Part shown: piece by piece, positions 3,145 to 64,000 of the stretch
Layout of the letters: the number at the start of each line of letters is the position of its first letter
Numbering within the stretch: the first letter of the stretch is position 1
NCBI RefSeq assembly: GCF_032854445.1
Contig: NC_088303.1
Span: 1,371,501 to 1,435,500 of the forward strand
DNA from: Liolophura sinensis
Taxonomy: Eukaryota; Mollusca; Polyplacophora; Chitonida; Chitonidae
DNA: 64,000 nt
Reading direction: 5' to 3'
Position numbers and translations under genes: made by a program
The notes under the pieces: model-generated
Databases searched by the model: none
What the model was told of the DNA's origin: nothing
What the model saw: the letters and a program-made list of their open reading frames with translations, nothing else

Positions 3145-5215
3145 TGAATCATCAGACAGCTTCACACAACAAACCAAAAAACTTTCCGGCAGCTGACAAT
3201 GATTTCCCGCTAATCTGTAATCAGACAGCTTCACACAACAAACATGTAAACTTACAGGCAGCTGACTCATTGATTTCCCGCTTATCGGTAATCGGACAGT
3301 TTCATACAAGAAACACCCAGAATTACCGGCGCTGACTCATTGATTTCCCACTAATCGGTAATCGGACAGTTTTATACAAGAAACACGCAGACTTACCAGC
3401 AGCTGACTTAATGATTTCCCGCTAATCGGTAATCGGACAGTTTCATACAAGAAACACGCAGACTTACCGGCAGCTGACTTAATGATTCCCCGCTAATCGG
3501 TAATCGGACAGTTTCATACAAGAAACACCCAGACTTACCAGCAGCTGAATCAATGATTCCGTGCTAATCTGTAATCGGACAGTTTCATTCAAGAAACACG
3601 CAGACTTACCAGCAGCTGACTTAATGATCCCCCGCTAATCGGTAATCGGACAGTTTCACACAAGAAACACGCAGACTTACCAGCAGCTGACTTAATGATT
3701 TCCCGCTAATCTGTAATCAGACAGCTTCACACAGCAAACATGTAAACTTACCGGCAGCTGACTCATTGATTTCCCGCTAATCGGTAATCGGACAGTTTCA
3801 CACAAGAAACATGCAGACTTACCAGCAGCTGACTTAATGATTCCCCGCTAATCGGTAATCGGACAGTTTCATACAAGAAACACGCAAGACTTACCAGCAG
3901 CTGACTTAATGATTTCCTGCTAATGGGTAATCGGACAGTTTCACACAAGAAACACGCAGACTTACCAGCAGCTGACTTAATGATTCCCCGCTAATGGGTA
4001 ATCGGACAGTTTCACACAACAAACACGCAGACTTACCAGCAGCTGACTTAATGATTTCCCGCTAATCTGTAATCAGACAGTTTCATACAACAAACATAGA
4101 CATAACGGCAGGTGACTCCATGATTTGCGGCTAATATGTACTCACACAGTTCATAAAACAAATATAGACATACCGGCAGCTGACTCAATGATTTGCCTCT
4201 AATGGTAACGTGAAGACATAGTTTCACACAACAAACACGTAGACTTACCGGCAGCTGACTCAATAATTTGCCGCTAATCAGTAATCAGACATTTTTAAAC
4301 AACAAACACGTACACTTACCGGCAGCTGACACCATGATTTCCCGCTAATCAGTACTCACAAGATTCCTACAACAAACATAAACTTACATTGACCCCATGA
4401 TTTCTCGCTAATCGCTAATCAGACAGTTTCACACAACAAACACGTACACTTACCGGCAGCTGACTCCATCGTTTGCCTCCAGTGATGACGTGGACACACA
4501 GTTTTACAGATCAAAGACGTAGACTTATCGCCAGCTGACTCCATCGTTTGCCTCCAATGGTATTGTGGACACACAGTTTCACAGATCAACACGTAAACTT
4601 ACCGGCAGCTGACTCCATCGTTTGCCTCCAATGTTAACGTGGACACACAGTTTCACACAACAGACAGATAGACTTACCCGCGGCTGACTCCATGGTTTGC
4701 CTCCAACGGTCACGTGGACACACAGTTTCACACAACAAACACACAGACTTACCGGCAGCTCACTCCATGATTTGTCACTAATCACTAATCAGATAAGTTT
4801 CACACAACAAACACGTAGACTTACCGGCAGCTCACTCCATGATTTGTCACTAATCAGTAATCAAATAAGTTTCACACAACAAACACATAGATTTACCGGC
4901 AGCTCACTCCATGATTTGTCACTAATCACTAATGATAAGTTTCACACAACAAACACGTAGACTTACAGGCAGCTGACTCAATGATTTGTCACCAAGCAGT
5001 AATCAGATAAGTTTCACACAACAAACACGTAGACTTACAGGCAGCTGACTCCATGATTTGTCACCAAGCAGTAATCAGATAAGGTTCACACAACAAACAC
5101 GAAGACTTGCCGGCAGCTGACTCCATGATTTGTCACCAAGCAGTAATCAGATAAGGTTCACACAACAAACACGAAGACTTGCCGGCAGCTGACTCCATGA
5201 TTTGCCGCTTATCAT
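3145..5215. repeat. 71-bp minisatellite, about 29 copies
   Basis: Unit length counted as 71 bp (for example 3359 to 3430). Core words on the plus strand are taatcggacagtttcacaca and gcagctgact. The 3' units (4480-5215) are a diverged subfamily. Read on the minus strand, most units contain GTAAGT directly after cagctgccg or cagctgctg, a consensus 5' splice-site sequence. Short reading frames inside the array are repeat artefacts. Confidence 0.9.
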
Positions 5216-13800: not shown

Positions 13801-16800
13801 AGAGTTCTTCGTGTTATATCAATGGATCGGTGGCTAACTGATGGATTACAGAGCAAAACATACAAATAAAATAGATAACGATATACAGTTCTTATTGATT
13901 GGTGCTATGCGACGGCGGTCAGCATTATGGTGGAAAGAAACCAGAGCCCGGCGGAAACCTACGACCGTTCGCAGGTTGCTTCAACACCTTCTCACGAACG
14001 GCCGGAGAGGAAGCCAGCAGGAGCTAGCCTTGAACTCACAGCGACCGCATTAGTGAGGGGCTCCTGGGTCATTGTAACCATTACGTGGCGCAGACCATTA
14101 CCTTATATCACAGTGAAATATGAAAAGTAAGCTTACTTTTTGAAGTAATGGAACAATATCGGAAAGATGGACATGATGGCTTCGTGGAACATACTGCGGG
14201 TGGGTCCACGGGTGACCAGCATTGCTATCACGTTAGACGCCACTTCCTGGGTCACATTCACCTGGTCAACAATCATAAAGCATAAGTAAATACATCTTCC
14301 TCATCTTAAAGTGTCTCAGGAACATCTTTGCCACACGTTCAAAAATAAGGGAGAGTTTAAAAATTTCTGAGACTCACTAATTTTGTACCAGACACTTTCT
14401 ATATGTGCTCGTTATCTTCAGTTTGTTAAGTGATGTTTTTCTTATCTGTTTGGCATGTCATTCTGTTTTTATCATCTGTTTGGCATGTCATTCTGAAGGC
14501 AGCAATACATAATATGTGCCTATGTGGTGTGAAGTCAAGAAATATCTCCTATGTGACTATGTTGGGTGAAGTTCAGCAAAATATTCTATGTGCCCATGTG
14601 GTGTGAACTTTAGCAATATATTTTATGTGCCTATGTGGGGCGAAGTTCGCAAATATATCCCATCTACCCATGTGGTCTCAGGAGCAGCAATATCTCCAAT
14701 ATCCCAATGTGGTATGAAGTTCATCAATAAAACCATGTGCCCATTTGATGTAAAGTTCAGCAATATATGCTATATGCCTATGTGGTGTGAAGTTCAGCAA
14801 TACACCCTATGCGCCTATGAGGTGTAAAGTTAACAAAATATCAAATAAGTCCAGAAATATCTCTTATGTTGCTATGTGGTGTAAACTTTATTAATATATC
14901 CTATATGCATATGTGGTGTGAGATTCAGCAATATATCCTATGTACCTATGTGGTGTCAGGAGCAGCAATATCTCCAATATGCCTATGTGGTAAGAAGTTC
15001 ATCAAAAAAACCCATGTGCCCATTTGATGTAAAGTTCAGCAATATAGCTATATGCCTATGTGGTGTGAAGTTCAGTAATATATCCTATGTACCTATGTGC
15101 TGTAAAGTTTACAAAAATATCATATAAGTCCAGAAATATCTCTTATGTTGCTATGTGGTGTAAGCTTTATTAATATATCCTATATGCCTATGTGGTGTGA
15201 GATTCAGCAATATATATTATGTACCTATGTGCTGTAAAATTTACAAAAATATCATATGTGCCTATATGGTGTGCAGTTCGGCAATACATACTATGTCCCT
15301 ATATGGTGAAAATTTGGCAAAACATCGTATGTGCCTATGTGGTGTAAAGTTCAGCAATATAGCTATATGCCTATGTGGTGTAAAGTTCAGCAATATAACC
15401 TATTTCTCTATGTGGTGTGAAGTTCAGCAATGCAAATTATGTGCCTATGTGGTGTGAAGTTCAGCAATATATCTTATGTAAATATGTGCTGTAAAGTTTA
15501 CAAATATATCATATGTGCCTATATGGTATGAAGTTCAGCAATATATCCCATGTGACTATGTGGTGTAAAATTTGGGAATACATGTTATGTGTCTACGTGG
15601 TGTGTTCAGCAAAAAATCATATGTGCCTTTATGGTGTGAAGTTCAGCAATATATCCTAAGTGCTTATGTGGTGTGCAGTTTAGCAATACATCCTATGTGC
15701 CTATGGGGTGTGAAGTTTAGCAATATATCCTATGTGTCTATGTGGTGTAAAATTCACCAATACGTATTTTGTGTCTATGTGGTGTGAAGTTCAGCAATAT
15801 ATCTTATTCACCTATGTAATGTGAAGTCCAGAAATATATTCTATGTGACTTTCTGGTGTAAACTTTATTAACAAATCCTATATGCCTATGTGGTGTAAAG
15901 TTCAGCAATATATTCTATGTACAGATGTGCTGTAAAGTAAAAAAATATATCATGTGCCTGTATGGTGTAAAGTCCAAAAATATATAATATGTGCCTATAT
16001 GGTGTGAAGTTTGGCAATACATTCTATATGCCTATGTGGTGTAAAGTTCGGCAATACATTCTATATATCTATGTGATGTGATGTTCAGCAATACATCTTT
16101 TGTCCCATTGTGGTGTAAACTTCAACAATATATCCTATGTCCCTACGTGGTGTGAAGTTCAGCAATATATCCTATTTCTCTATGTGGTGTGAAGTTCAGC
16201 AATGTATCCTAAGTGTCTATGTGGTGTGAAGTTCAGCAATACAGAGTAGGTCCTTGTGTGGTGTTAAGATCAGGAATGCAACTTACGTGCTTATGTGGTG
16301 TGAAGTTTAGCAATATATCCTATGTAGCTATGTGCTGTAAAGTTTTCAACTATATCATACGTGCCTATATGGTGTTTAGATCAGCAATATATCCTACATG
16401 CCTACGTGGTCTGAAGTTCAGGAATATATCCCATGTGCCCATGTGCTTTAAAGTTTACATATATATTGTTCGTGCCTATGTGGTGTGAAGTTTAGAAATA
16501 AATCCTATGTACCTATATGGTGTGAAGATTAACAATTTATCATATGTGACTATATGGTGTGAAGTTCAGAAATATATCGTATGTCCGTATGTGGTGTGAA
16601 CTTCAGCAATACACAAAATGTGCCTATGTTGTGTAAAGCCAAAAAATATCACCTATGTGCCTTTGTGGGGTGAATTTCAGCAATATATCCTATGTACCTG
16701 TGTGGTGGAAAGTTTAGCATTACGTACTATGTCCCTATGTGGTGTGAAGTTCGGCAATGCAACCTATGTGCCTATGTGCTGTGAAGTTCAGCAATACATC

Positions 16801-19800
16801 CTATGTACCTATGTGCTGTAAAGTTTTCAACTAAATCATACGTGCCTATATGGTGTAAAGTGCACCAATATATCTTATTCGCCTTTGTGGTGTGAAGTCC
16901 AGAAATATATCCTATGTGCATATGTGGTGTAAACTTTAATAATATATCCTATATGCCTATGTGGTGTGAAGTTCAGCAATATCTTCTATGTACGTATGTG
17001 GTGTAAAGTTTAACAATATATCATACGTGCCTATGTGGTGTGAAGTTCGACAATACATCCAAGTTCAGAAGTTCAGCAAAATATCCTATGTGCCTATGTG
17101 GTGTAAAGAGCGGCAATACATATGTACCCATGTGGTGTAAAGTCAAGAAATAACTCCTATGTGCCTATGTGGGATAATGTTCAACAATATATCCTCTGTA
17201 CCTAAGTGGTGTGAAGAGCAGCAATATATCCTATGTGTCTATGTGGTGTAAAATTCAGCAATATATTTTATGTGCCTATGTGGGGCGAAGTTCGGCAATA
17301 TATCCTATATACCGATGTAGTCTGAGATGTAGCAATATTTCCTATATGCCTATGTGGTGTGAAGTTCATCAATAAAGCCCATGTGCCTATGTGGTGTGAA
17401 GTCCGGAAATATCTCTTATATGTGGTGTAATGTGGTGCTATGTGGTGTAAACTTTATTATTATATCCTATATGCCCATGTGGTGTGTAGTTCAGCAATAT
17501 ATCCTCTTTACCGTCCCGTAAAGTTTACAAATATATCATATGTGCCTGTATAGTGTGAAGTTCAGCAATATATCCTATTTGTCTGTGGTGTGAAGCTAAG
17601 CAATATATCCTATGTGTCTATGTGGTGTAAATTTCTTTAAATACATCCAATGTCCCTACGTGGTTTAAAGTTCAACAATATTTCCTATCTGCCTTGTTGG
17701 TTTAAAGTTCAGCAATATATCCTTTGTGTCTATGTGGTGTGAAGTTCAGCAATATATCTTATTCGACTTTGTGATGTGAAGTCGAGAAATATATTTTATG
17801 TGGCTATGTGGTGTAAACTTCAATAATATATCCTATATGCCTATGTGGTGTGAAGTTTACATATATATTATATGTGCCTATGTGGTGGGAAGTTCAGCAA
17901 TATATCATATGTACCTATGTGCTGTAAAGTTTAACAATATATCATATGTGCCTATATGGTGTGAAGTTCAGAAATATATCATGTGCCTATGTGGTGTGAA
18001 GTTCGGCAATACATCCTGTGTGTCTATGGGGTGTGAACTTCAGCAATACATAATATGTGCCTATATGCGTAATACAAGACAAGTCAAGAAATAACTCCTA
18101 TGTGACTATGTTGGATGAAGTTCAGCAATATATCCTATGTACCTGTGTGGTGTGAAAAGCAGCAATATATCCTATGTGTCTATGTGGTTTAAAGTTCAGC
18201 AATATATCCTATGCGCTTATGTGGTGTGAAAAGCAGCAATGTCTACTATATGCCAATGTAGTGGAAAGTTCATCAATAAAACCCATGTACCCATTGGATC
18301 TAAAGTTCAGCAAAATATGCTTTTGACTAGGTGGTGTGACGTTCATCAATATATAATATATGCCTATGTGGTGTGAAGTCAAGCAAATACATCCTATGTG
18401 CCTATGTGGTGGGAATTTCGCCAATATACCCTACACGCCCATGAGGCGTGATGTCCAGAAATATCTCATATGTGGCTATGTAATGCAAACTTTATATATG
18501 TATCCTATATGCCTATGTGGTGTCACGTTCAACAATATTACCTATATACCTATATGGAGTGAAGGTCAGCAATATATATTATGTGCCCATGTGGTGTGAA
18601 GTTTGGCAATACATCGTATGTGCCTATGTGGTGTAAATTTCAGCAATAAGTCGTATGTGTCTATGTGGTGTGAAGTTCACCAATATATCCTATGTGTCTA
18701 TGTGGCGAGATGTTCAGCAATATATTGTATGTGTCTATGTGGTGTAAAGTTCAGCAATACATCCTATGTGGCTATGTGAAGTAAAATTCAGCAATACATA
18801 CTATGTGCCTATGTGGTGTGAAGTTCGCCAATAAATCCTATATACATATGTGTTGTAAAATTTACAAATGTATCATATATGCCTAAATCGTGTGAAGTTC
18901 AGCAATATATCGTATGTGTCTAGGTGCTATGAAGTTCAGCAATACATACTATGTCCCCTTTGTGGTTTGAAGTTCAGCAATATATCATATGTGACTATGT
19001 GCTGTAAAGAGCAGCAATATATTGTATGTGTCTGTGTGGTGTGAAGATAAACGATATATTTTATGTGCCTATGTGGGGCGAAATTCAGCAATATATTCCA
19101 TGTGTCCATGTGGTGTGAAGTTCAACAATATACCCTATGTGCCCATGTGGTGTGAAGTTCCGCAATACATCCTATGTGCCCATGTGGTGTGAAGTTCAAC
19201 AATATACCCTATGTGCCCGTGTGGGGTTTAGTTCCGCAATACATCCTAAGTCCCTATTTGGTTTAAACTTCAAAAATATGTTGTATGTCCCTACGTGGTG
19301 TAAAGTTCAGCAATATATCTTATTCGCCTTTGTGGTGGGAAGTCCAGAAATATATTCTATGTGGCTATGTGCTGTAAACTTTAATAAACTATCTTTTATA
19401 CCTATATGGTGTGAAGTTCAGCAATATATCCAATATGCCCATGTTTTGTGAACTTCGGCAATATTTCCTATGTGCCTATGTGCTGTAAACTTTACAAATA
19501 TATTCTATGTGCGTATGTGGTGTGAAGTTTCCAAAAATGTCATATGTGCCTATATGGTGTTAAGTTCAGCAATATATCCCATGTGCTCATGTGCTGTAAA
19601 GTTTCCAAATACATTATATGTACCTATATGGTGTGAAGTTCAGCAATATATGCTATGTGCCTATGTGGTGTGAGATTCAGCAGTATATTGTATGTGGTTA
19701 TGTGGTGTGAAGTTCAGCAATATACCCTAAGTGCTTGTGTAGTGTAAGGTCTAGCAATACATTCTGTGTGTCTTTGTGGTGTGAAGTTTATAAATATATT

Positions 19801-22800
19801 CTATGTGGCTATGTGGTGTAAACTTTAATAATATATCCTGTATGCCTATGTGGTTTGAAGTTCAGCAATATATCATATGTACCTATGTGGTCTGAAGTTC
19901 GGCAATACATTCTATATGCCTATGTGGTGTAAAGTCTAGCAATACAACCTATGTGCCCATGTGGTGTGAGGTTCTGCAATACATCCTATGTTCCTTTGTG
20001 CTGTTTTCCACTATTTCATACGTGCCTATATGGTGTGAAGTTAACAATATATCTTAAATGCCTACGTGGTGTAAAGTTCAGCAATATATCCTATGTGCCC
20101 ATGTGCTGTAAAATTTACAAATATATCATATGTGCCTATGTGGTGTAAAGTTCGGCAATACCTCCTTTATGCGTATGCGGTGAATAGTTTAGCAATATAT
20201 CCTATGTGTGTATGTCGTGTGAAGTCTAGCAATAAAATCTATGTCCCTATGTGGTGTGGAGTCTAGCGATGCAACCTATGTGCCTATGTGGTGTGAAGTT
20301 CAGCAATATATCCCATGTGCTGTAAAGTTTTTAACTATATTATACGTGCCTATATGGTGTGAAGTTCAGCAATATATTCTATGTGCGTATGTTGTGTAAA
20401 GTTTCCAAAAATATCATATGTGCCTATATGGTGTGAAGTTCAGCAATACATCCTCTGTCCCTATGTGGTGTAAACTTCAACAATATATCCTATGTCCCTA
20501 CGTGGTGTGAAGTTCAGCAATATATCATATGTGCTTATGTGGTGTGAAGTTTAGCAATATATGCTTTGTACCTATGTGCTGTAAAGTTTAACAATATATC
20601 ATATGTGCCTTTATGGTGTGAAGTTCAGCAATATATCCTAAGTGCTTATGTGGTGTTAAGTTTAGCAATACATCCTGTGTGCCTTTGTGGTGTGAAGTTC
20701 AGCAATATATCCTATGTGTCTATGTGGTGTGAAACTCACCAATAGGTCCTGTGTGCCTAAGTGGTGTGAAGTTCAGGAATATATCTTATTCGCCTTTGTG
20801 GTGTAAAGTCCAGAAATATATTCTATGTGGCTATGTTGTGTAAACTTTAATAATATATCCTGTATGCATATGTGGTGTGAAGTTCAGCAATATATCCTAT
20901 ATACCTATGTGGTCTGAAGTTCGGCAATACATTCTATATGCCTATGTGGTGTGAAGTTCAGCAACATATCTTATGTGCCTATGTGGTCTGAAGTTCCGCA
21001 GTACATTCTATATGCCTATGTGGTGTGAAGTTCAGCAACATATCTTATGTGCCTATGTGGTCTGAAGTTCCGCAGTACATTCTATATGCCTATGTGTGTA
21101 AAGTCTAGCAATACAACCTATGTGCCTATATGGTGTAAAGTTCAGCAATATATCCTATGATCTTATGTGCTGTAAAGTTTTCAACTATATCATACGTGCC
21201 TATATGGTGTGAAGTTCAGCAATATATCTTATATTCCTACGTGGTGTGAAGTTCAGCAATATATCCTATGTGCCCATGTGCTGTAAAGTTTACAAATATA
21301 TCATATGTGCCTATGTGGTGTGAAGTTCGGCAATACATCCTATATGCCTATGTGGTGTAAAGTTCAGCAACATATCCTATGTGTCTATGTGTTGTGAAGT
21401 TCAGCAATACATACTATGTCCCTATGTGGTGTGAAGTCTAGTGATGCAATCTATGTGCCTATGTGGTGTGAAGTTTAGCAATATATCCTCTATGCCTACG
21501 TGGTGTGAAGTTCAGCAATATATCCTATGTTCCCATGTGCTGTAAAGTTTACAAATACATCATATGTGCCTATATGGTGTGAAGTTAAGGAATATATCAT
21601 ATGTGCCTATGTGGTGTGAAGTTCGGCAATACATCCTATATGCCTATGTGGTGTGAAGTTTAGCAATATATCCCATGCACCTATATGGTTTAAAGTTCAA
21701 CAATATATCCTATATTCTTATGTGGTGTGAAGTTCAACTATATATCCTATGTGCCTTTTTTAGGTGAACTCACGTGTACACGTCAACAGTTGTAAAGGAG
21801 AAGGTGTGAACTGAGGTAAACACGTCAAACAGTTGTAAAGAATAAGGTGTGATCTCACGTATACACTTCTGGAAGTGGTAAAGGATAAGGTGTAAACTGA
21901 CGTATACATGTCAGAAAGTTGTAAAGGAGAAGGTGCAAACTCAAATATACACGTCAGACAGCTGTAAAGGAGAAGGTGTGAACTCATGTATACACGTCAA
22001 ACAGTTGTAAAGTAGAAGGTGTGAACTTAGGTATACACGTCAGACAGATGTAAAGGAAAAGGTGTAAACCCACGCATACACGTCAGATAGTTCTAAAGGA
22101 GGTGTGAACTCACGCATACACATCAGAAAGTTGTAAAGGAGAAGGTGTAAACTAACGTATACACGCCAGAAAATTGAAAAGGAGAATGCGTGAACTCACG
22201 CATACACCTTGGATCGTTACAAAGATGTGAAGTTATGCATACAGGTAAGATAGTTACGAAGAAGTATGTGAACTTACCGAAATGAAGTTTGAAACTCCCC
22301 TTACCTGTAACTTTGGCTGGATATCAGAGTTGAGAAAACAGCTGATTATGCTTTGACTTTCAGAATCTCCTCATCCGTCTTGGTCAGAATGAAAAACGTG
22401 CCAGGTTTACATATGCCGTTCACCATTTCTGTGTATCTGGTAAAACAGAATGTGGTCAGAATGAAAAACGTGCCAGGTTTACATATGCCGTTCACCATTT
22501 CTGTATATCTGGTAAAACAGAATGTGGTCAGAATGAAGAACGTGCCAGGTTTACATATGCCGTTCACCATTTCTGTGTATCTGGTAAAACAGAATGTGGT
22601 CAGAATGAAGAACGTGCCAGGTTTACATATGCCATTCACCATTTCTGTATATCTGGTAAAACAGAATGTGGTCAGAATGAAGAACGTGCCAGGTTTACAT
22701 ATGCCGTTCACCATTTATGTGTATCTGGTAAAACAGAATGTGGTCAGAATGAAGAACGTGCCAGGTTTACATATGCCGTTCACCATTTCTGTATATCTGG

Positions 22801-25800
22801 TAAAACAGAATGTGGTCAGAATGAAGAACGTGCCAGGTTTACATATGCCGTTCACCATTTCTGTGTATCTTGTAAAACAGAATGTGGGTCAGAATGAAGA
22901 ACGTGCCAGGTTTACATATGCCGTTTACCATTTCTGTATATCTGGTAAAACAGAATGTGCTCAGAATGAAGAACGTGCCAGGTTTACATATGCCGTTCAC
23001 CATTTCTGTATATCTGGTAAAACAGAATGTAGTCAGAATGCAGAACGTGCCAGGTTTACATATTCCGTTCACCATTTCTGTATATCTGGTAAAACAGAAT
23101 GTGGTCAGAATGAAAAACGTGCCAAGTTTACATATGCCGTTCACCATTTCTGTATATCTGGTAAAACAGAATGAGGTCAGAATGAAGAACGTGCCAGGTT
23201 TACATACGCCGTTCAAACATTTCTGTATATCTGGTAAAACAGAATGTGGTCAGAATGAAGAACGTGCCAGGTTTACATATGCCGTTCACCATTTCTGTAT
23301 ATCTGGTAAAACAGAATGTGGTCAGAATGAAGAACGTGCCAGGTTTACATATGCCGTTCACCATTTCTGTATATCTGGTAAAACAGAATGTGGTCAGAAT
23401 GAAGAACGTGCCAGGTTTACATATGCCGTTCACCATTTCTGTATATCTGGCAAAACCAGAAATGTGGTCAGAATGAAGAACGTGCCAGGTTTACATATGC
23501 CGTTCACCATTTCTGTATATCTGGTAAAACAGAATGTGGTCAGAATGAAAAACGTGCCAGGTTTACATATGCCGTTCACCATTTCTGTATATCTGGTAAA
23601 ACAGAATGTGGTCAGAATGAAGAACGTGCCAGGTTACATATGCCGTTCACCATTTCTGTGTATCTGGTAAAACAGAATGTGGTCAGAATGAAGAGCGTGC
23701 CAAGTTTACATATGCCGTTCACCATTTCTGTGTATCTGGTAAAAACAGAATGTGGTCAGAAATGAAGAACGTGCCAGGTTTACATATGCCGTTCACCATT
23801 TCTGTGTATCTGGTAAAACAGAATGTGGCCAGAATTAAGAACCTGCCAGGTTTACATATGCCGTTCACCATTTCTGTATATCTGGAGCAGAGCAGCCATA
23901 ATACCCCAAGGCATGAATGGTGTTATGATTTTCTAATAAATGTATATGTACCGTTCTTAAAAATTGTTTTCAAACCCGTTCGGCAGAAGAGTGTACAGGT
24001 AATTGGGAAAGCCCTCCCGGGGCAATACCCACTGAAGTGATCAGGAAGGTTAGTAATACATAAGCCTGCCAATGGCCTAAATGCAGTCAGATATGGATCC
24101 GAAGACTTGTTTGGACCATAATGATAATGTATAGTTCTACGGCACTGGAGATTTAGAAATTATAAAAAAAACATGCTTTTGATGTTAGATTAGATATTTT
24201 GTGGTCTCAGTGTACATACTATAAACAAAATCACAAAATTTTAACAATGAGAGAATACTGTATACGTAAAAGTAAAATAATTATAAGTGAAGACATTGTT
24301 TTTTACACGATCATTAGGCGGGTTAGATTTGGTCTTTGTAAGCGACGATATTGCGTTTTACACGATCATTAGGTGGGTTAGAATTGGTCTTTGTAAGTAA
24401 CGACATTGTGTTTTACACCATCATTAGGTGGGTGAAAATGGATCTTCGTTAGTGACGACATTGTGTTTTTACACGATCATTAGGCGGGTTAGAATTGGCC
24501 TTTGTAAGTGACGACATCGTGTTTTACACGATCATCAGGTGGGTTAGAATTGGTATTTGTAAGTAACGATATTGTGTTTTACACCATCATTAGGTGGGTG
24601 AAAATGGATTTTTGTAAGTCACGACATTGTGTTTTTACACGATCATTATGTGGGTTAGAATTGGTCTTTGTAAGTGAAGACTGTGTTTTACACGATCATT
24701 ATGTGGGTTAGAATGGATCTTTGTAAGTGACGACATTGTGTTTTACACCATCATTAGGTGGGTTAGAATGGATCTTTGTAGGTGACGACATTGTGTTTTA
24801 CACGATCATTAGGTTTGTTAGAATGGATCTTTGTAAGTGACGACATTGTGTTTTACACCATCATTAGGTGGGTTAGAATGTATCTTTGTAAGTGACGACA
24901 TTGTGTTTTACACGATCATTAGGTGGGTTAGAATGGGTCTTTGTAAGTGACGACATTGTGTTTTACACGATCATCAGGTGGGTTAGAATGGATCTTTGTA
25001 AGTGACGACATTGTGTTTTACACGATCATTATGTGGGTTAGAATGGATCTTTGTAGGTGACGACATTGTGTTTTACACGATCATCAGGTGGGTTAGAATG
25101 TATCTTTGTAAGTGACGACATTGTGTTTTACACGATCATTAGGTGGGTTAGAATGGGTCTTTGTAAGTGACGGACATTGTGTTTTACACGATCATTAGGT
25201 GGGTTAGAATGGATCTTTGTAAGTGACGACATTGTGTTTTACACGATCATTATGTGGGTTAGAATGGATCTTTGTAAGTGACGACATTGTGTTTTACATG
25301 ATCATTATGTGGGTTAGAATGGATCTTTGTAGGTGACGACATTGTGTTTTACACGATCATGAGGTGGGTTAGAATGGATCTTGTATCTTTGGTATTACAC
25401 AAGTAGACAAGAATTTCCTCCAACTTTACCTCACACAACTGACATGCAAACAATATCAATATGAACAATAACCTTACTATAAAAATCCAACTGAAATTCA
25501 CTCTTTGACAGCATTTGATTCAATCATAAAGAAGATATTAAAACATACAAAAGTACATGTAAACCTTGTTGCAGACAAACTTTATCCATGGCCTGTCCAG
25601 TGACATTTGCCTGTTTTGGGGTATTTCTTGAAAATGGGAAAAGAACACATCAAAAGATCATATCAATATCAAGTTGTTCTGTACCAGATAGCTCTAAGAG
25701 GTAAAAACAACTTACTTTGCGACTTCAACCCAAAACAGCAGATCTTGTGGAAGTTTGTTAACAACCAGTAGGCGATTCTGCAGAACGATTTTGATCTCCG

Positions 25801-28800
25801 ATGATATGCCTGTTTTTTCTGATATATGAAAAGAAGAAAATGGATGTATTTCTGGAGGTTCGTAGATGTAAATGACATTAAGATTACGTTATGGTATTGT
25901 AGCTCTGTCTTGTGACAAATTAACACGTTATGGTATTGTAGGTGTGAAAAATTAACACGTTATGGTATTGTAGCACTGTCTTGTGACAAATTAACACGTT
26001 ATGGTATTGTAGCACTGTCTTGTGACAAATTAACACGTTATGGTATTGCAGCACTGTCTTGTGACAAATTAACACGTTATGGTGTTGTAGCACTGTCTTT
26101 TGACAAATTAACACATTATGGTGTTGCAGCACTGTCTTGTGACAAATTAACACGTTATGGTGTTCTAGCAGTGTCTTGTGACAAATTAACACGTTATGGT
26201 ATTGTAGCACTGTCTTGTGACAAATTAACACGTTATGGTGTTCTAGCAGTGTCTTGTGACAAATTAACACGTTATGGTGTTCTAGCACTGTCTTGTGACA
26301 AATTAACACTTCATGGTGTTCGACATACATTTTACAACAGCAAACAATATTTATACTATACAATATATCTACTCTCATTTTACAGTATTCCACATTTTGC
26401 ATCATTTTAAATAACACTTAAATTTACCTAATTTGCCAGTTAAAAAGAATTTAACAAGGTGTTAGAACTTCTTTAGTACAACGTTAAACACTGATCAAAT
26501 AAAATAAATAATAAATAAATAAATGTAAAAGAAACTGTGAAAGGTTTCATATAAACTGTCTTGTATCAGAACAACGAGGTGTATTAGCAATGGTTTCATC
26601 CCTGCTGTCTTATCTTAGAACAACACGGTGTGTAATATCTGCTATCGCATCTAAAAAAACATTGTGTATTAAGAATACTTTTGTCGTTGCTACATGTTTC
26701 CTATCTCATAATGATATGTTCTATTCAAATGGTTCGTATCCGAGGGAGTATCTCATAACAACAGTGCGCATTAAGAATGGTTTCATCTCTACTATCCTGG
26801 TCTGTTATGTATACGTTCGAATTTGTTATCGTATCTCAGAATAACAAGGTGTGTTAAGAATAGTTTCGTATCGACTATCTTTTCTCAGCGAAATTACACA
26901 GCGAATAACATAGTTTCATTTATGATTTCCTATCTCAGAGCAATAAGTTAGGCCTATATTAGGAACAGTTTCCTATTTGCTCTCTTGTCTCAGAACAACA
27001 TGGTCTATTATATTATTTGTATCTCAAAATAACATTGTGTAGGCCTACTAAGAATGGTGTTGTATCTGATGTCATATTTCAGAACAGTATTGCGTTTAAA
27101 GAATATTTGCTATCGTATCTCTGGTGTCTTTATAAGCATTTTGACTTACTCTGAATCGCCTTTTTAACCTGGAGATTAAGATAGATCCAGAAAATGACAA
27201 CCTGTCGACTGTCCTTGAGGGCTTTGTTGAAGTGGCAGATTATTTTGAGAAGTCTAGACCAGAGATAGTGCTGAAAACCGACAGAACACAGGACAAAAGA
27301 TAAAGATGTCACCAAGCAATACTGTAAACTGACAGAACGCCAGGCAACAACTAAACATTTCACCAGGCAATACTGTAAAGGCACAGAACATAGAACAACA
27401 GATAAAAACGTCATCAAGCAATACTGTAACCCGACAGAACGCCGGGCAACAACCAAACATTTCACCAAACAATACTGTAAAGGGACAGAACACAGAACAA
27501 CAGATAAAAATGTCATCAAGCAATACTGTAAACCGACAGAACACAGGGCAACAACTAAACATTTCATCAAACAATATTGTAAACCGACAGAACACAGAAC
27601 AACAGGTAAAGATGTCACCAAACAATACTGTAAACTGACAGAACACAGAACAGCAGATAAAGATGTCACCAAGCAATACTGTAAACAAATAACAGATAAA
27701 GATGTCATCAAGCAACACTATAAACAGGCAGAACACAGGGCAACAACTAAACATTTCACCAAACAATACTGTAAACTGACAGAACACAGAACAGCAGATA
27801 AAGATGGCACCAAGCAATACTGTAAACTGACAGAACACAGAACAGCAGATAAAGATGTCACCAAGCAATACTGTAAACAGACAGAACACAGAACAGCAGA
27901 TAAAGATGTCATCAAGGAATACTGAAAACCGACAGAACACAGGGCAACAACTAAACATTTCATCAAACAATACTGTAAACCGACAGAACACAGAACAACA
28001 GACAAAGATGGCACCGAGCAATACTGTAAACCGACAGAACACAGAACAACAGATAAAAATGTCACCAAGCAATACTGTAAACCGACAGAATACCGGGCAA
28101 CAAACAAACATTTCATCAAACAATACTGTAAAGGGACAGAACAACAGATAAAGATGGCATCAAGCAACACTGTAAACTGACAGAACACAGAACAGCAGAT
28201 AAAGATGTCATGAAGCAATACTGAAAACGGTTTTACCTGGTGTTAACGAGGAGGAACATTCGAACGCAGTAACCAAAAATTTAAAATTTTCTCCTTCTTT
28301 ATAAAGAAGTTACTGGCTTTAGCTATTTTCGGTCCCAGCTATTGTGAAATAAAGGTAATGGTGGGACGTGTTGCAAGTGTACTTCATGATTTGAAAACAG
28401 AGTGAGCAGTACCGCATAACACTAAGGTAAGTTAAACCATCTCCAAAATTCGGAAACCGAGCATTTGCTGGTACCAGAATGTGGACAATGTAACAGACAA
28501 TATTTTCCAAAACAGCTTGCGGTGATTCGATATAGACATATGAAATGCCTATCTACAAAACGGCGAGACGTCCGAATTTCTAACTGTTGTGTTGTAACTG
28601 AAGAACACATTTGTCATGCCATGGACATGTGTGCTTATAACAGCATTTTACCATGCTGATAATTCACTGACTTTGCTATCGCTCAATTCAGTCACTGGCG
28701 TGACATTACAATTGTGTCTCCATGTAGCAGATAATTCACTGACTTTGCTATCGCTCAATTCAGTCACTGGCGTGACATTACAATTGTGTCTTCATGTAGC

Positions 28801-34800: not shown

Positions 34801-35620
34801 TATGCCCGTCGCGGCCAGCCACCACTTTAAGCGTCAGAGCCAGCGAAGGCATCAGTTCCTTTATATGAGCAAGTGAACAGTTACAACGGTACAGTGGTGC
34901 TTTGACTTCTCTCACTATCACACGTAGGCGATAAATTGCATTTATTTTTTTTTTTTTGGTTTGTTTATTTATTTATTTGATTGGTGTTTTACGCCGTACT
35001 CAAGAATATTTCACTTGTACGACAGCGGCTAGCATTTTGGAGGAAGGAAACCGGGCAGAGCCCGGGGGAAACCCACGACCATCCGCAGGATGCTGGAAGA
35101 CCTTCCCACGTACAATCATAATTAAGAAATACGATTAAATGACGTACCACGAGAGGCTTACCACTTGGAAAACGACTAACCGCAGCCAGTTCTAACGCTG
35201 TCCACATGTAGGTGCTTCCATTGTCCGGCGATAGGACAACTTCTCGCAAATCTCCGTCCATCACGTTATTTGTAGGCGATAGTTTCATCACACCTCTGCG
35301 AGTCTTAAAAAAACAAACAAAAAAACAAACAAATAACAAACAAACAAGAAAATGTTTTCTTTTCCTTGTCACAAATTCGGCATTATACAAATGACAATAT
35401 AGGTGCCACCGATTAAATCTTATTACAGACATTCAGATCATCACCGAGGAAAAATCTTTAGGTTTGTATGCATGAGGTTTAACGACGTACTTAACAATTT
35501 TTCAATCATATGTGTTCACAGAAATATACTGTCTCTTCTTGTATAGCAGGGAGAGTCCATGTCGCCAAGTGCTGTCGCCACTGAAGAATACATACATACA
35601 TACATACATACATACATACA

Positions 35621-35654
<34 letters not shown>

Positions 35655-38600
35655 CTTACCACTTTATTAAAAAATATAAGTTGATCATTGTTAGTGAAAG
35701 TCTTCCATGAAGGTCTCAAAGCCTGTAACGAAAAGATATAGAATGACATTGGGTAACATTCCATTGTTTTCGGACTCCAGACAACAGGAGACATCACAGA
35801 CAAGCAATAAACTGCAATGTCTTCGTAATCGATAGTAAATACAATAACACGATGTGTGTAATAGATATACAACTTCTTGGTTTACAACAACGTTGTCAAG
35901 CTTGATAATAATGCTAGTAACTACATCGAAACGTTGTGTTAATAAACTAAGAAGTTTAGCGATAACGAACATCTTGCTGCTTTATTTCCTCAACAACTTC
36001 CAAATGCCACTGAAAGTAGTCAACAGTTGCATGTATATGTCACATACAAAGCAGTTTACAGGGTGAAACATGCACGGATGTGATCACAACTTTGGCCCGG
36101 AATAACGTTTCTTGTTTACCTGAATGCAGTGTTCTTGGGCCTGGATCAAAGCTTCCGGATTATTCCCGTACTTAAGTGACCAATAGAGAGCCTCCTGTTC
36201 CTCCGCTGGAAACATGGAATGGTGAGCCGATGGGTCCAGACGATACTGCTTCAAGATGTTGGCTGCAAACAATTGTCTGTTGTTCCTCCCAACAGAGTCT
36301 GTGGCATTAGGATCCATTCTCAGGTACTCCTCCAGATCATTAAGGAGCATAAGAAATACCAAGGATCCAAAAGCGTACGAAGCGTTCAGGTAGGTCTCAA
36401 ACGGTCGCCCGGCAAGCACGTCCGATGCTATAGACACTATGAGCCGTTTGTTGTCCTGTTCATACGAGCTTGTCGACATGTACATCGAGCCACGCAGCAA
36501 ATGGCGAACTGAAGGTGACAGTTCAAATGGTTCAGTGTTTGCTTTAGCAGTATTGCTCTGTTTGCCACCGGCATGCTGATTTACCTGACGGTTCGGCGGA
36601 AAATTTGGACTCTCTCCATGTTCATTAGAATCATCACTGGCATGACTCGAGTCGCAGAACTGGCGTACATTTGTATTTGCCCGAAACGGAGAAAATTTCG
36701 ATGATTCCAGGGATACTGCAGACGCTGGCGTCCACAAATCGTCCTGTGACTTGGAACTGATGTCAGTAATCCGATCAGATGCTAAATTCTCATTACCGAA
36801 AACTTTAGACTCGTTTAAACGATGACCTAAAATCAAGAGGATCACACGTCACAGCGGTTTGGTTTTGGAAGTTTTGATACAGAACAGAAACAAACAAAAG
36901 TTTCAAATCATAAGTTTTACAGCAGTTTAAAGAAAATGAAAAAGAGAATAGAATGAGATTAGGAAAAAACATAAATAATGACAGGTATGAATATTTTTAA
37001 TGTTATATAAAGCCCGTTCTCACGATGCAATTTGTAGTACCAACTTGAAGCATTCGACTTATATAAGCCATTTTATTGAGAGTGTCGCCTGTATTCAGCT
37101 GTGTGTAAACTCAGGCACACTCATTGTCAAAATTGCCTTTAGTCAGTGACACGTAACAACACAAGCTCTACACATGGATAAGTTCGAAGTCCATGTTCTT
37201 GCAAAGAAAATCAAATTAGAACACTTTTTTCTAATTCATAATGTCAAATCCCATAAGCTTAGTTTCGATACCAAGAACTCGTTGCACGGGTGACGGGGGC
37301 GTGAAGAGTAATTTGCATTACAATAGGTGCACCAACCTGCGGGAACTCCAGGCAGTAACATATCCTACACTAGACTCTCAGCCAATAGACTGCATTCTTC
37401 CTTCTAACAAAATTTCCTAACATCCAGCTTTCAAACCATACTGCCGTGAGATAATATACTACAACAGATAAAATTATATTCATTTGTTTCAGCAATTTCA
37501 GCTATGGCAGAGGCAAAAACAAGGTTTACAGTAAGATCGGTAGCAGTTTTGGAGACTGGTGTCCCTCCTCTCCCCCCCCCCCCTTGTCAAAACACAACTC
37601 CAACAAATATGCAGCATGCCACTGGTTTTGACTAATTATGACGTCACTTGAGGCAATGGGTTCTTGCAGTCGAAACGAGACTTATGTACTTTAACATCAT
37701 GAATTAAAAAGTGTTCTAACTTCATTTTCCACGCAATAATATGAACTTTAAACATATCAATGTGTAGAGCGTATGTTGTTGCGTGTAACTGATTAAAGGC
37801 AATTTTGCTAGCGAGTATGACTGATTTTTCAAACAGCTGAAAATAGGCGACTCTCTAAAAGAAATACACAATAGTATTCGACAAAAATCGTCTCGGAAAT
37901 CGCGGTTTCTTGTTCAGTTCCGTGGCTAAGATCTGGCGTTGTTGTTATGCATGGAGGTTTACTGTAATTTACATGATGTGTAATTTCATACCATAGTAGA
38001 TCTTGACAAAGATAGTAAGCAATAAATTACTCGGGATCAGTGAGTGGTAAGACTCTCTGCTTTCCTCAGTACAAGCATTTGTATCGTCATGGTTGTTGAC
38101 AATCTTTGATTGGCAAGGCAAAGGGGCGTAACTTATATTGGAAAAACTGAAGTGATTTGACTGGCCAGCGCATGCGATTTGTAGCATGGAAACAGAGTCC
38201 TCTCTATTTATTTCGACAAGCTCACAACTCTTTGAATGCGACAAATGTCGAAGCCATTCCGGTGTTATGACGGTTCAACTCGGTTACATGCTACAAGTTG
38301 GTACAACTCGCGGTATAAGAAGGGGCCTATTCATTGAAAATTTTTAAATTCCACAAACTTACGACAGAAAACTTTGCCATAACTTAGAAGCAACGTTACT
38401 TATTAACGGGTCGTGGAAATCATCAGCTGTCAGTGATATTGGTATAGTCTATTGACCAAAATGTACGGCCTCATACTGGGGATATGTTGTATAGATATAT
38501 GTGAGATAATCCTTAATAGTGTAAATCGTTGTGTAAGAATATCTAACAAAATACTGGCGTGGGCAAGCGGTCCAAGAAAGTGGAATAACCTCTTAACAGG

Positions 38601-47300: not shown

Positions 47301-50300
47301 TGAGAATTCACCTGAAGGCATCCCTGGGGGCAAGGCCGTGGCGATGACTTTGGGGAGGGGGGCTGACTTGAAGGGCCTGGGGGTGCAACTCTATACTGAC
47401 ACTCAAACAACAGGGTGTGCTCATCAATTATTGTGGTGATGCAGGCAGATGAAGTGGAGGCTTTGTCGAGTATCTTTGAGGGGTCATTTCATGTCGTGGA
47501 TGAAGCAACGAGGACTTACAGCATACAGGTGACTGCAACAGAGGATGGGGTGGACCAGGAAACAATGCCAGTCATGCTACAGGTAATGTGTTAATGGGGT
47601 GGACAAGGAAACAATGCCAGTCGTGCTACAGGTAATGTGTTAATGGGGTGGACCAGGAAACAGTGCCAGTCATGCTACAGGTAATGTGTTAATGGGGTGG
47701 ACCAGGAAACAATGCCAGTCATGCTACAGGTAATGTGTTAATGGGGTGGACAAGGAAACAATGCCAGTCATGCTACAGGTAATGTGTTAATGGGGTGGAC
47801 CAGGAAACAATGCCAGTCATGCTACAGGTAATGTGTTAATGGGGTGGACAAGGAAACAATGCCAGTCATGCTACAGGTAATGTGTTAATGGGGTGGACAA
47901 GTGGGGTGGGTGGGGACACTGGAAATTGGTGCCAATAAGACGTTGCTTACATGCACCCACCCAATATGTTAACTGACAGAAGTAAGGGGAAAATGTAATG
48001 TTTTCAGTCTGTATTTCATTAGCTGCAAGTATATAAAGTATAAAGTATATAAAGTATAAAGTATATAAAGTATAAAGTATATAAAGTATAAAGTATATAA
48101 AGTAATCGAAGATAATTGTGGATGAGGACATCACTTTTCTTTAAATAGCATGCAAAATATTTTGTGAGGACTGACACATCTTGCTTCGCATTCTAACTCT
48201 TACGGTTCTGCAACTTGAATCATAGTTAAATGTTATCAACTATCATGACAATAGCAAATCTGCACGCCACACATCGGAAAGTTTGTTAGTAACTTGCCAA
48301 AGTTTGGTAGTTTATCCTGGGCACTCCAGTTCCCCTCACCCATCAGACTGATTGGCATTGTATAAGTGAGTCATTCTTGGGTATGCCTTAAACTGACAAC
48401 AGGAAACATAAGGTAAATAAATTGTGTCTGGCCTACTAGTGTTTGTGTAAATCCAGTGAGGCTGATTAAGTGTGTATGGAGTGAGTCCATCTATTGCTGG
48501 TTCAGCTATCCATGGCTTTCATGTCAGAATTAGGTCTGTCCAGTACAGGGAACATGGTGGGGTGTTCTACTGGTCTCTGCCCTCCAGTTTCTTCCACCAG
48601 TCAACCCATCATGCCCATAAACCTGACTGCACAGAGGTATAAAGGGCAATACCCTCAAGTACCAGCACAGCTTAATTCCCAAACGAAATAAGGTCAAGAG
48701 AGAGATTGAGACGTCTCAAATGTTCTGTATTGGCTGTTAGGAATGACTTGTCTTTCATTGCACATTTGAGCAGTCATGTAGCCCAAGATCTTCATAATGA
48801 TATTGATTGGGGGTCACACATAGGAGTGTTAAGATAGATACACAAGTCTTCCCATTTTGAAAGATTCTCACCCTTGGGAGTCACACAGTATTTATCAAAT
48901 TCCATCCATGCTAAATGAAACTTTGTGGGCACCTAGAAATTTAGATGTACTTGAGCATTTTGAAAAATACACACAAATAATCTATAGCTGATTTCAATGC
49001 CTTGTCCTCACAAAAGTCGTCAGTGTTGTTGCATGGGCAGAAATGGCCATATGCTTTTGTTAGTCCAGCATTTGGATGGGTGCCATATTCTGTGGGTTAA
49101 CACAGTCTTGACCAAATCGTACAAAGTTACCTCCCACTTTGTGATGATAGCCGTTTCTCTGTAAACTCACACATTTGCATGTGTAGTTTATCGACAAAAT
49201 CAAATACATAGAGTAACAGAAACTTTAAACACCGTAAAACTTGACCTGGGAAATGTAGACCTGATCTATATAGAAAATTTTGGTCTTCAAATTGATGTGT
49301 AAGAGCTCTATAAATATTTATGTTTTAGTTTTTTTCGTTAAGGCTAACTGCTTGAGCAGAACTGTTCATAACAGTGGAAGGGGGATAACTCTTGTCATTT
49401 TACAGTCTGCTTGGCATGTTAGTGTGTGGCCCTATGATGTGTTTCAGATCCAGATGCCTCCGGATTACCCTAGCAGTGCACCACCTGTGTACCAACTCAA
49501 GTATGTACATATGCTTCACTCTCAATGAAATTTGTCAGTTTTTAACTATTTTTCAACTCAAAATCACTCGCTGGATGTAAACACGGGCCAGCTGGTATAT
49601 ACAGTAGTGACAGTTATCCACAATTAAACATGACATGACTTTGAACAAGATTTTACCATCCTTACACAAAACAGTTTGTAATTTGCTCATTTTCTATCAA
49701 CGTTTCCAACTTGTATGCATCACTGTAGTCATAGGGACATGTCGGAGCGGGTTGTGGTCACATGGTAATCTTATAAGGGCTAGGGACTTGTAGGAGCGGG
49801 TCATGATCACATGGTAATCCTGTGACCGTTAGGGACATGTAGGTGTGGGTCATAGTCACACGGTAATCTTATAAGGGTTAGGGACATGTAGGAGCAGGTC
49901 ATGGTCACATGGTAATCTTATAACAGTTTGGGACATGTAGGAGCAGGTTGTGGTCACATGGTAATCCTATAACCATTAGGGACATGTAGGAGCGGGTCGT
50001 GGTCACATGGTACACTCTATAACGGTTTGGAACATGTAGGAGTGAGTCATGGTCACATGGTAATCTTACAATGGCCAGGGACATGTAGGAGCAGGTCAGG
50101 GTCACATGGTAATCTTTATAACGGTTGGGGATATGTAGGAGCGGGTCATGGTCACATGGTAATCTTATAATGGTTGGGGACATGTAGGAGCAGGTCATGG
50201 TCAAATGGTAACCCAATAATGGTTGGGGACATGTAGGAGCAAGTCATGGTCACATGGTAATCTTATAACGGTTGGGGACATGTAGGAGTGGGTCATGGTC

Positions 50301-60385: not shown

Positions 60386-60659
60386 CATGAACCAGTCATG
60401 GATATTTTCCTCTCAGACTGGTGTTCTATTTCCTTTAATGAACCATATGAATACCATGCAGGAGCATGGTTAATAAGTTATGTGCTTTAACCATGTTAAA
60501 TGCAGTTTTCTGATGTGCAACTATTTTGGCTTTACAGTACAATATTTTACATTTTCCTGTATTTACAGTGTATTTTTTTTAGTTTTTTTTTCATTTATTT
60601 ATTTTGTTTTAATTTTTTTTTTGAAACTGATAATTTTGTCAATGTCTGTGTGACATTGT
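60386..60659. other. Spacer between the two large IMPACT-intron arrays
   Basis: Includes a T-rich stretch at 60570-60625. No exon fits the expected phase-1 entry. Confidence 0.4.
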
Positions 60660-63600
60660 CTTTCAGAGTGTATACCTGCCCAGAGTTCATGTTTTGGTTG
60701 TTTATCTTTCACAGTGTATATCTGCCCAGAGTGTATGTTTGGTTGTTTATCTTTCACAGTGTATATCTGTCCAGAGTGTATGTTTTGGTTGTTTATCTTT
60801 CACAGTGTATACCTGCCCAGAGTGTATGTTTGATTGTTTATCTTTTACAGTGTATACCTGCCCAAAGTGAATGTTTCGTTGTTTGTCTTTCACAGTGTAT
60901 ATCTGCCCAGAGTGTATGTTTGGTTGTTTATCTTTCACATTGTATATCTGCCCAGAGTGTATGTTTTGGTTGTTTATCTTTCACAGTGTAGGCCTATATC
61001 TGCACAGAGTGTATGTTTGGTTGTTTATCTTTCACAGTCTATACCTGCCCAGAGTGTATGTTTGATTGTTTATCTTTTACAGTATATACCTGCCCAAAGT
61101 GAATGTTTCTTTGTTTATTTTTCACATTGTGTACCTGTCCTAAGTGTATGTTTTGGTTGTTTATCTTTCACAGTGTATATCTGCCCAAAGTGTATGTTTG
61201 GTTGTTTATCTTTCACATTGTATACCTGTCCAGAGTGTATGTTTGGTTGTTTATCTTTCACAGTGTATACCTGTCCAGAGTGTATGTTTGGTTGTTTATC
61301 TTTCACAGTGTATGTTTGCCCAGAGAGTAGGTTTGGTTGTTTATCTTTCACAGTGTATACCTGCCCAGAGTGTAGGTTTGGTTGTTTATCTTTCACAGTG
61401 TATATCTGTCCAGAGTGTATATTTGGTTGTTTATCTTTCACAGTGTAAACCTGACCAGAGTGTATATTTGGTTGTTTATCTTTCACACTGTATATCTGCC
61501 CAAAGTGTATGTTTGGTTGTTTATCTTTCACAGTGTATATCTGCCCAGAGTGTATGTTTGGTTGTTTATCTTTCACATTGTCCATCTGCCCAGAGTGCAT
61601 GTTTGGTTGTTTGTCTTTCACACTGTTTATCTGCCCAGAGTGTATGTTTGGTTGTTTATCTTTCACAAAGTATGTCTGCCCAGAGTGTATTTTTGGTTGT
61701 TTCTCTTTTACAGTGTATACCTGCCCAGAGTGATCGTTTGGTTGTTTATCTTTCACCGTGTATATCTGTCCAGAGTGTATGTTTGGTTGTTTATCTTTCA
61801 CGGAATATACCTGTCCAGAGTGTATGTTTAGTCATTTATCTTTTACAGTGTATACCTATAAAGAGTGTAAGTTTGGTTGTTTATCTTTCACAGTGTATAC
61901 ATGCCCAGAGTGTATGTTTTGGATGTTTATCTTTCACAGTGTATACCTGCCCAGAGTGTATGTTTGGTTGTTTATCTTTCACAGTGTATACCTGCTCAGA
62001 GTGTGTGTTTTGTTTATCTTTCACAGTGTATATCTGCCCTGAGTATATGTTTTGGTTGTTTATCTTTCACTGTGTATATCAACCCAGAGTGCATATTTGG
62101 TTGTTTGTCTTTAATAGTGTATACCTGTCCAGAATGTCTGTTTGGTTGTTTATCTTTCACAGTGTATATCTGTCCAGGGTGTATGTTTGGTTGTTTATCT
62201 TTCACAGTGTATATCTGCCCAGAGTGTATGTTTGGTTGTTTATCTTTCACAGTGTATATCTGCCCAGAGTGTATGTTAAATTGTTTATCCTTCAGATTGT
62301 AAATCTGCCCAGAGTGTATGTTTTGGTTGTTTATCTTTCACAGTGTATATCTGCATCTGCCCAGAGTGTACGTTTGGTTGTTTATCTTTCACATTGTGTA
62401 TGCACCCAGAATGTATGATTGGTTGTTTATCTTTCACACTGTATACCTGTCCAGAGTGTATGTTTTGTTGTTTATCTTTCACAGTGTATATCTGTCCAGA
62501 GTGTATGTTTTGGTTGTTTATCTTTCACAGTGTATACCTGCCCAGAGTGTATGTTTGATTGTTTATCTTTTACAGTGTATACCTGCCCAAAGTGAATGTT
62601 TCGTTGTTTGTCTTTCACAGTGTATATCTGCCCAGAGTGTATGTTTGGTTGTTTATCTTTCACATTGTATATCTGCCCAGAGTGTATGTTTTGGTTGTTT
62701 ATCTTTCACAGTGTAGGCCTATATCTGCACAGAGTGTATGTTTCGTTGTTTATCTTTCACAGTCTATACCTGCCCAGAGTGTATGTTTGATTGTTTATCT
62801 TTTACAGTATATACCTGCCCAAAGTGAATGTTTCTTTGTTTATTTTTCACATTGTGTACCTGTCCTAAGTGTATGTTTTGGTTGTTTATCTTTCACAGTG
62901 TATATCTGCCCAAAGTGTATGTTTGGTTGTTTATCTTTCACATTGTATACCTGTCCAGAGTGTATGTTTGGTTGTTTATCTTTCACAGTGTATACCTGTC
63001 CAGAGTGTATGTTTGGTTGTTTATCTTTCACAGTGTATGTTTGCCCAGAGAGTAGGTTTGGTTGTTTATCTTTCACAGTGTATACCTGCCCAGAGTGTAG
63101 GTTTGGTTGTTTATCTTTCACAGTGTATATCTGTCCAGAGTGTATATTTGGTTGTTTATCTTTCACAGTGTAAACCTGACCAGAGTGTATATTTGGTTGT
63201 TTATCTTTCACACTGTATATCTGCCCAAAGTGTATGTTTGGTTGTTTATCTTTCACAGTGTATATCTGCCCAGAGTGTATGTTTGGTTGTTTATCTTTCA
63301 CATTGTCCATCTGCCCAGAGTGCATGTTTGGTTGTTTGTCTTTCACACTGTTTATCTGCCCAGAGTGTATGTTTGGTTGTTTATCTTTCACAAAGTATGT
63401 CTGCCCAGAGTGTATTTTTGGTTGTTTCTCTTTTACAGTGTATACCTGCCCAGAGTGATCGTTTGGTTGTTTATCTTTCACCGTGTATATCTGTCCAGAG
63501 TGTATGTTTGGTTGTTTATCTTTCACGGAATATACCTGTCCAGAGTGTATGTTTAGTCATTTATCTTTTACAGTGTATACCTATAAAGAGTGTAAGTTTG

Positions 63601-64000
63601 GTTGTTTATCTTTCACAGTGTATACATGCCCAGAGTGTATGTTTTGGATGTTTATCTTTCACAGTGTATACCTGCCCAGAGTGTATGTTTGGTTGTTTAT
63701 CTTTCACAGTGTATACCTGCTCAGAGTGTGTGTTTTGTTTATCTTTCACAGTGTATATCTGCCCTGAGTATATGTTTTGGTTGTTTATCTTTCACTGTGT
63801 ATATCAACCCAGAGTGCATATTTGGTTGTTTGTCTTTAATAGTGTATACCTGTCCAGAATGTCTGTTTGGTTGTTTATCTTTCACAGTGTATATCTGTCC
63901 AGGGTGTATGTTTGGTTGTTTATCTTTCACAGTGTATATCTGCCCAGAGTGTATGTTTGGTTGTTTATCTTTCACAGTGTATATCTGCCCAGAGTGTATG
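60660..64000. repeat. 45-bp minisatellite, about 74 copies, with a 1,725-bp higher-order duplication
   Basis: Unit counted as 45 bp: tatatctgcccagagtgtat, gtttggttgtttatctttca, cagtg. Each unit has a pyrimidine-rich run ending tttcacag, acceptor-like in the IMPACT sense. The segment 60745-62469 recurs from 62470 to the window end at an offset of 1,725. The only difference I noticed is ttggttg against ttcgttg at about 61020/62745. 45 is a multiple of three, so long frames are open on both strands; none is a gene. The array runs off the window. Confidence 0.93.

Follow-up and report, generated by a model that had tools for sequence, protein, structure and literature searches.

The window analysed here is a 64-kb stretch of Liolophura sinensis DNA (bases 1371501-1435500 of a 37.3-Mb contig, ~1.4 Mb from the contig end, in a genome of 609 Mb and 632 contigs). 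In an RGS22-like gene on its minus strand, the start of one exon is repeated in tandem together with its splice acceptor. This array is very probably a large splice-junction minisatellite, of the kind named "mirages" in amphioxus, that is spliced at its exon-proximal copy. The consensus unit of 72 bp consists of 55 nt from the exon start, then 17 nt of intron end, ACATTCTGTTTTACCAG. The repeat table gave 20.8 copies; cut at the exon start, the array yields 20 complete units, and a 21st copy continues into other sequence, which is the exon proper (Table 1). Fifteen of the 20 units are exactly 72 bp long, the other five being of 71, 73 or 74 bp, and 27 substitutions and seven one-base indels separate them from the consensus (~97.6% identity). 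AG precedes all 21 unit starts. The cutting of the array into units itself required AG; as the longest unit is of 74 bp, no AG-less unit has been skipped.

The copies keep plausible acceptors. An identical score of 8.2 was obtained for 17 of the 21, the exon's own included, and the other four scored 10.2, 7.6, 7.3 and 4.5, while the same matrix gave 1.9 to 12.3 for the acceptors of the 13 other exons of our gene model. The splice matrices are simple and built on general frequencies, and the branch motif is likewise a general one. A branch-like CTGAC is found 19-21 nt upstream of 18 of the 21 acceptors (those at 23881, 23809 and 22941 lack it) and, where present, it sits in the exon-derived part of the preceding unit. 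This means that the branch-like site, the tract and the AG of the true exon are all supplied by the array. Each unit could be a self-contained 3' splice site, with CTGAC in exon-derived sequence and both the pyrimidine tract and the AG in the 17-nt intron end behind it. A preliminary description of this DNA had proposed that an exon start was amplified together with its acceptor and joined to an RGS22-like exon, and that the acceptors were retained; both proposals are borne out. It had also called the array in frame. This is true of the consensus unit, which has no stop in the exon frame (translation YTEMVNGICKPGTFFILTTFCFTR), and does not extend to the array as a whole, given the five units of deviating length, a TAA in the unit starting at 22724 and the small number of acceptors, 4 of 21, that remain open.

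Four inner units equal the consensus exactly, and the first unit has three private substitutions. The exon copy differs from the consensus at unit positions 4 and 43; both differences are synonymous, and both recur in array units (6/20 and 3/20). It is as if exon and array were exchanging sequence, with selection filtering the exon copy. We propose that the array began with the tandem duplication of a 72-bp stretch covering the intron 3' end and the initial 55 nt of the exon, and that this stretch may then have been amplified by unequal exchange or slippage. Judging from the frame and from published cases, the preceding exon is most likely joined to the last, exon-proximal acceptor, and the upstream copies would be removed as intron. 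The exon copy would remain in the homogenisation pool of the array. The locus may thus show how a gene becomes dependent on a minisatellite, its acceptor, pyrimidine tract and branch-like site all lying in the repeat and the first 18 codons of the array exon being subject to repeat turnover.

The RGS22-like gene and its reading frame

Our partial model of the gene places 14 exons (E1 to E14) between 40370 and 14137 of the minus strand, with borders chosen by eye at AG/GT; a 15th candidate exon lies at 12996-12812. The joined translation of E3-E14 (709 aa, residues 255-963) has as its top PDB match the RGS22 chain of 9fqr (1257 residues), with an E value of 2.9e-13. The match is in two stretches, the better of which spans the array exon, E13, where FWVEVAKYTEMVNGIC is aligned with FWQEVQKYKDLCHSHC and IISCFLNSDIQPKLQ with IINCFINSSIPPALQ. 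This alignment indicates that the exon start and the part beyond the array are old coding sequence. Eleven residues, PGTFFILTKTD, are without counterpart in 9fqr as aligned, and 8 or 9 of them, depending on the placing of the gap, fall within the repeat unit. Going by the usual RGS fold, they presumably form the loop that follows the FW..V helix. With the Pfam RGS model (cut-off 23.9), the middle domain scores 42.0 bits, against 34.2 when a single exon is given; the third domain reaches 23.3 or 22.8 and the first 17.8 or 14.7, depending on the piece given. With several predicted RGS domains and RGS22 as best match, the gene is RGS22-like by sequence, as had been proposed. A search of a large protein collection with residues 255-963 of the model gave no homologue at E 0.001 or better among 5512 candidates, so that only the 9fqr chain could be aligned at the array exon.

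Because E12 breaks off after the second base of a codon and E14 begins at phase 0, the array exon should measure 3n+1 nt, and it is one base out of phase. Its frame, YTEMVNG...KTDEEILKVKA, stops at a TAA, and the conserved IISCFLNSDIQPKLQ lies in another frame. Each acceptor of the array was considered as a means of restoring the frame and none does so, as the frame of IISCFLNSDIQPKLQ is interrupted by a TGA that lies in the exon beyond the array. As assembled, full-length RGS22 would be produced from no array acceptor. A second one-base break is found in E1 (40054-40370), where the frame shifts close to five consecutive T, and the gene has no intact reading frame as assembled. These two breaks could be assembly errors or real lesions.

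If real, they would suggest that RGS22 is here a pseudogene and that the array could grow unopposed in a dying gene. However, the 12 other exons of the 14 are open and their lengths fit each other's phases (worked by hand on borders set by eye), both breaks are of one base, as assembly errors would also produce, and a comparable donor array of 49-bp units sits in a neighbouring gene whose four joined exons are open. Decay of the gene is therefore an unlikely explanation. Mis-assembly could in principle have created the copy number or the entire array, since short near-identical repeats are hard to assemble, and PMC3087553 describes an aberrantly assembled mirage. Against this, the units carry private substitutions, unlike sequence bounds the array on both sides, and the same build is met at three other junctions; an artefact is highly improbable.

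When read in the frame of the gene, 17 of the 21 acceptors run into a stop inside the array and four stay open into the exon. In the unit starting at 22724, GAA has become TAA, so acceptors at or above this unit are closed even if the one-base indels are errors. The frame evidence would agree with regular splicing that is undisturbed by the array. Several observations speak against so simple a picture. Lancelet PGBD5 has a predicted exon inside its repeats (PMC3902484), and splicing can be altered by the minisatellite repeats that sit on exon-intron boundaries within human segmental duplications (PMC2812944). When every occurrence of a substitution in the exon-derived part of the units is counted, 11 are nonsynonymous and 13 synonymous (p 0.005), a synonymous bias that is expected from the shared ancestry of the copies but could also come from translation of some units. 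Counting distinct substitutions gave 10 nonsynonymous and 6 synonymous, with 75% nonsynonymous expected (p 0.25). Coding constraint on the array was considered and set aside, being significant only when shared variants are counted repeatedly; a MAFFT alignment was not used for these counts, the indels of three units being misplaced in it. The first unit lacks the branch-like motif, and the upstream flank of the array does not resemble a worn unit end (p 0.66). For these two reasons the birth of the array could not be reconstructed.

The preliminary description had further suggested that splicing to more distal acceptors inserts blocks of 24 residues, here into the third RGS domain of RGS22. 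In favour of this, the last four acceptors are alike in score and open into the exon start, the protein predicted from the window is already longer than 9fqr at the same place by the 11 residues mentioned, and the human boundary repeats give a precedent, as does human IFI6 (6-16, G1P3), whose minisatellite provides multiple splice donor sites according to a cited title. However, most acceptors of the array are closed within it, even the exon's own meets a stop as assembled, and the amphioxus arrays are reported not to interfere with regular splicing (PMC3087553, PMC3902484). Such isoforms are very unlikely, and for full-length RGS22 they would be impossible on the sequence as assembled.

Junction-copied arrays in a minisatellite-rich neighbourhood

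The build of the 72-bp array is not peculiar to RGS22. A total of 89 kb of the contig was read, namely the window and 25 kb added on this lead, and four arrays with exon-junction sequence were found: the 72-bp array, and arrays of 49-bp, 45-bp and 52-bp units in the neighbouring IMPACT-like gene (Table 1). Each has one to four open sites, always including the exon-proximal one. For the 49-bp array, which repeats a donor, only one of seven donors is stop-free, namely the first. The four joined exons of this gene give an RWD domain of 81.1 bits (cut-off 22.8). The 45-bp array terminates inside the exon at L009:9028-9122 (tttacag/TGTATACCTGCCCAGAG/ATAAAACATGG). AG is kept in 166 of its 269 recognised copies, and from two of the 166 the exon can be read through in phase and without a stop. 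The short peptide of this exon alone has no Pfam or PDB match. In the 52-bp array, whose unit includes the acceptor and 8 nt of the exon (8 nt alone being a weak match), one of 18 motif-bearing acceptors is open, that of the exon itself. Joined by an X spacer, the exons of the 45-bp and 52-bp arrays reach 21.7 bits with UPF0029 (E 2.1e-4), below the cut-off of 27. We take the pairing of RWD and this candidate UPF0029 domain to mark an IMPACT-like gene.

When the units of 21 of the 23 chosen arrays were compared with 19 exons, those of 72 bp and 49 bp matched far above shuffles, each to its adjoining exon; no other unit went beyond the shuffles, one 22-bp unit having equalled the best of them. 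A further array, of 51-bp units, carries an acceptor-like motif in its units and provides with its last AG the acceptor of E11; its unit shows no significant likeness to the start of E11 of the kind that a worn copy would keep (p 0.74 local, 0.08 global). Other repeats of the window were noted. The intron following the array exon holds a 7.3-kb array at 14500-21756, with a 37-bp unit in ~198 copies, and a four-base repeat run at 35588-35659 lies directly behind the donor of E4. At 3151-5214, a 71-bp array has a donor-like gtaagt on the minus strand, with a start codon before gtaagt in some units and lacking in others; no exon could be tied to it. Near-identical tails GAGTACGGCGTAAAACACCAATCAAATAAATA occur at 35001 and 1657 (minus) and at 43535 (plus) and probably belong to one dispersed element. 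Such tails are common in mollusc genomes.

With so many repeats, some arrays could meet exons by coincidence. The repeat table comprised 33 groups, of which 23 arrays were hand-picked and ten short ones set aside; among these ten, one abuts E4 and one is near E5. The 23 cover 49.8% of the window. Contact with a junction is seen for three of the 23, where 0.76-0.87 would be expected (P 0.04-0.05); when exon overlap is required, two remain, which is not significant (P 0.17-0.19). With the ten short arrays included, the contacts are 5, 4 or 2 according to the definition (P 0.007, 0.03 and 0.33). When all 89 kb are taken together, 25 arrays make five junction contacts, with 0.65-0.71 expected (P 0.0002-0.0008), and four overlap an exon (P 0.005), but these P values are too favourable, since the lead guided the choice of the extra 25 kb and the ends of arrays were where exons were looked for. 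Chance does not account for a unit being the adjoining exon's own sequence, as it is in the 72-bp and 49-bp arrays, and coincidence is an unlikely explanation.

The three 10-kb stretches beside the window (L009, L010 and L011) are 98-99% minisatellite. Of seven other samples within ~1.5 Mb of a contig end, five are at 44-76% and two at 0%. Twelve samples lie at least 2 Mb inside contigs, seven of them picked as RGS loci; 11 have at most 11% minisatellite and one 27%. Contig ends are not necessarily chromosome ends. The RGS22 array would thus lie in DNA that is rich in minisatellites and close to the end of a contig, where several junctions belonging to two adjacent genes may have met the same fate. 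This could mean that splice junctions are preferred birthplaces of arrays in minisatellite-rich contig ends, so that one gene after another comes to be spliced from a repeat that offers as many as hundreds of decoys. Junction-spanning duplications would then be tolerated because a working site always remains beside the exon. We put this forward tentatively, as possible but rather less probable than its contrary.

Table 1. Coordinates of the exons and arrays discussed (window positions unless prefixed L009 or L031).
Feature	Position	Strand	Description
72-bp array	22381..23885	-	20 complete units (55 nt exon start + 17 nt intron end) and the exon's own copy
Array exon E13 of the partial model (exon 18 of the preliminary description)	22305..22436	-	132 nt; first 55 nt = last unit; phase off by one base, with TAA at 22348
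Exon's own acceptor	22437..22453	-	17-nt intron end belonging to the last full unit; branch-like CTGAC immediately upstream in exon-derived repeat
Open upstream units	22437..22724	-	starts 22652, 22580 and 22508 open into the exon; unit starting 22724 holds an in-frame stop at 22717
Preceding RGS22 exon E12	25716..25818	-	donor AAA/gtaagt; ends two bases into codon
Following RGS22 exon E14	14137..14261	-	phase 0 start
51-bp array	27271..28228	-	acceptor-like motif in units; last AG = acceptor of RGS22 exon E11 (27270-27150)
RWD-domain exon, IMPACT-like gene	47445..47582	+	last 38 nt and donor repeated downstream
49-bp donor array	47545..47901	+	7 donors CTACAG/gtaatg, spacing exactly 49 bp; unit = 38 nt exon end + 11 nt intron
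45-bp acceptor array	60659..64000, continuing for 9 kb beyond the window (to L009:9044)	+	unit = 17 nt exon start + 28 nt intron with tract and AG
52-bp acceptor array	L031:3561-4893		ends at a further IMPACT-like exon, L031:4886-4979, tttgatag/GATATGCC/GTGGGG

Comparison with known splice-junction repeats

The preliminary description knew of no described gene with a minisatellite built from its own acceptor and exon start. This claim to novelty falls, because tandem repeats of such boundaries have been published in amphioxus and in human CBS. In CBS, there is a 31-bp variable number tandem repeat whose name, c.1444_1467+7(16_21), denotes 24 nt from the end of an exon and 7 nt of intron (PMC2630376). 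It has the same build as our 49-bp donor array; it differs from the 72-bp array in lying on the donor side, and it is polymorphic in people. The CBS variant 844ins68 is a 68-bp duplication of the intron 7/exon 8 junction, in two copies only, for which the distal site (the paper says "donor") is strongly favoured and the upstream copy is removed (PMC2630376). The repeat of IFI6 is likewise on the donor side, unlike the 72-bp array. The boundary repeats of human segmental duplications have on average four 30-bp units and are tied to recent paralogues (PMC2812944), which also sets them apart.

The closest likeness is with the amphioxus mirages, minisatellite-like tandem duplications of intron-exon boundaries, at either end of an exon, in which AG or GT is kept in many units (PMC3087553, PMC3902484). 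They have been described for Adh3, TnC, the globins BflGb6 and BflGb9, and PGBD5 (PMC3087553, PMC3902484), with units of 10-72 bp in Adh3 and of 10-160 bp overall. Within their clusters, concerted evolution, less homogenised boundary copies and length instability between haplotypes are reported. The 71-74-bp unit found here extends across an intron-exon boundary of a genuine gene, and splice signals are kept in many units, 17 of 21 in the 72-bp array and 166 of 269 in the 45-bp array. BflGb6, where the 3' end of an intron and the 5' part of an exon are repeated, has the same build as the 72-bp array, but only 6 and 3 copies in its two haplotypes, as compared with 21 here and ~270 in the 45-bp array. 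All the cases encountered under the name of mirages are cephalochordate, and none under that name was found outside cephalochordates in open papers, the name having been searched only together with "minisatellite" and "amphioxus".

The architecture itself is thus already published; what is new here is its recurrence, with four junction-copied arrays in 89 kb and several junctions of two adjacent genes affected, unlike in the mirages. These arrays, one of ~270 copies, constitute a natural test of site choice among near-identical splice sites. They equally provide a test of the proposal, made in the amphioxus globin work, that such arrays seed new introns.

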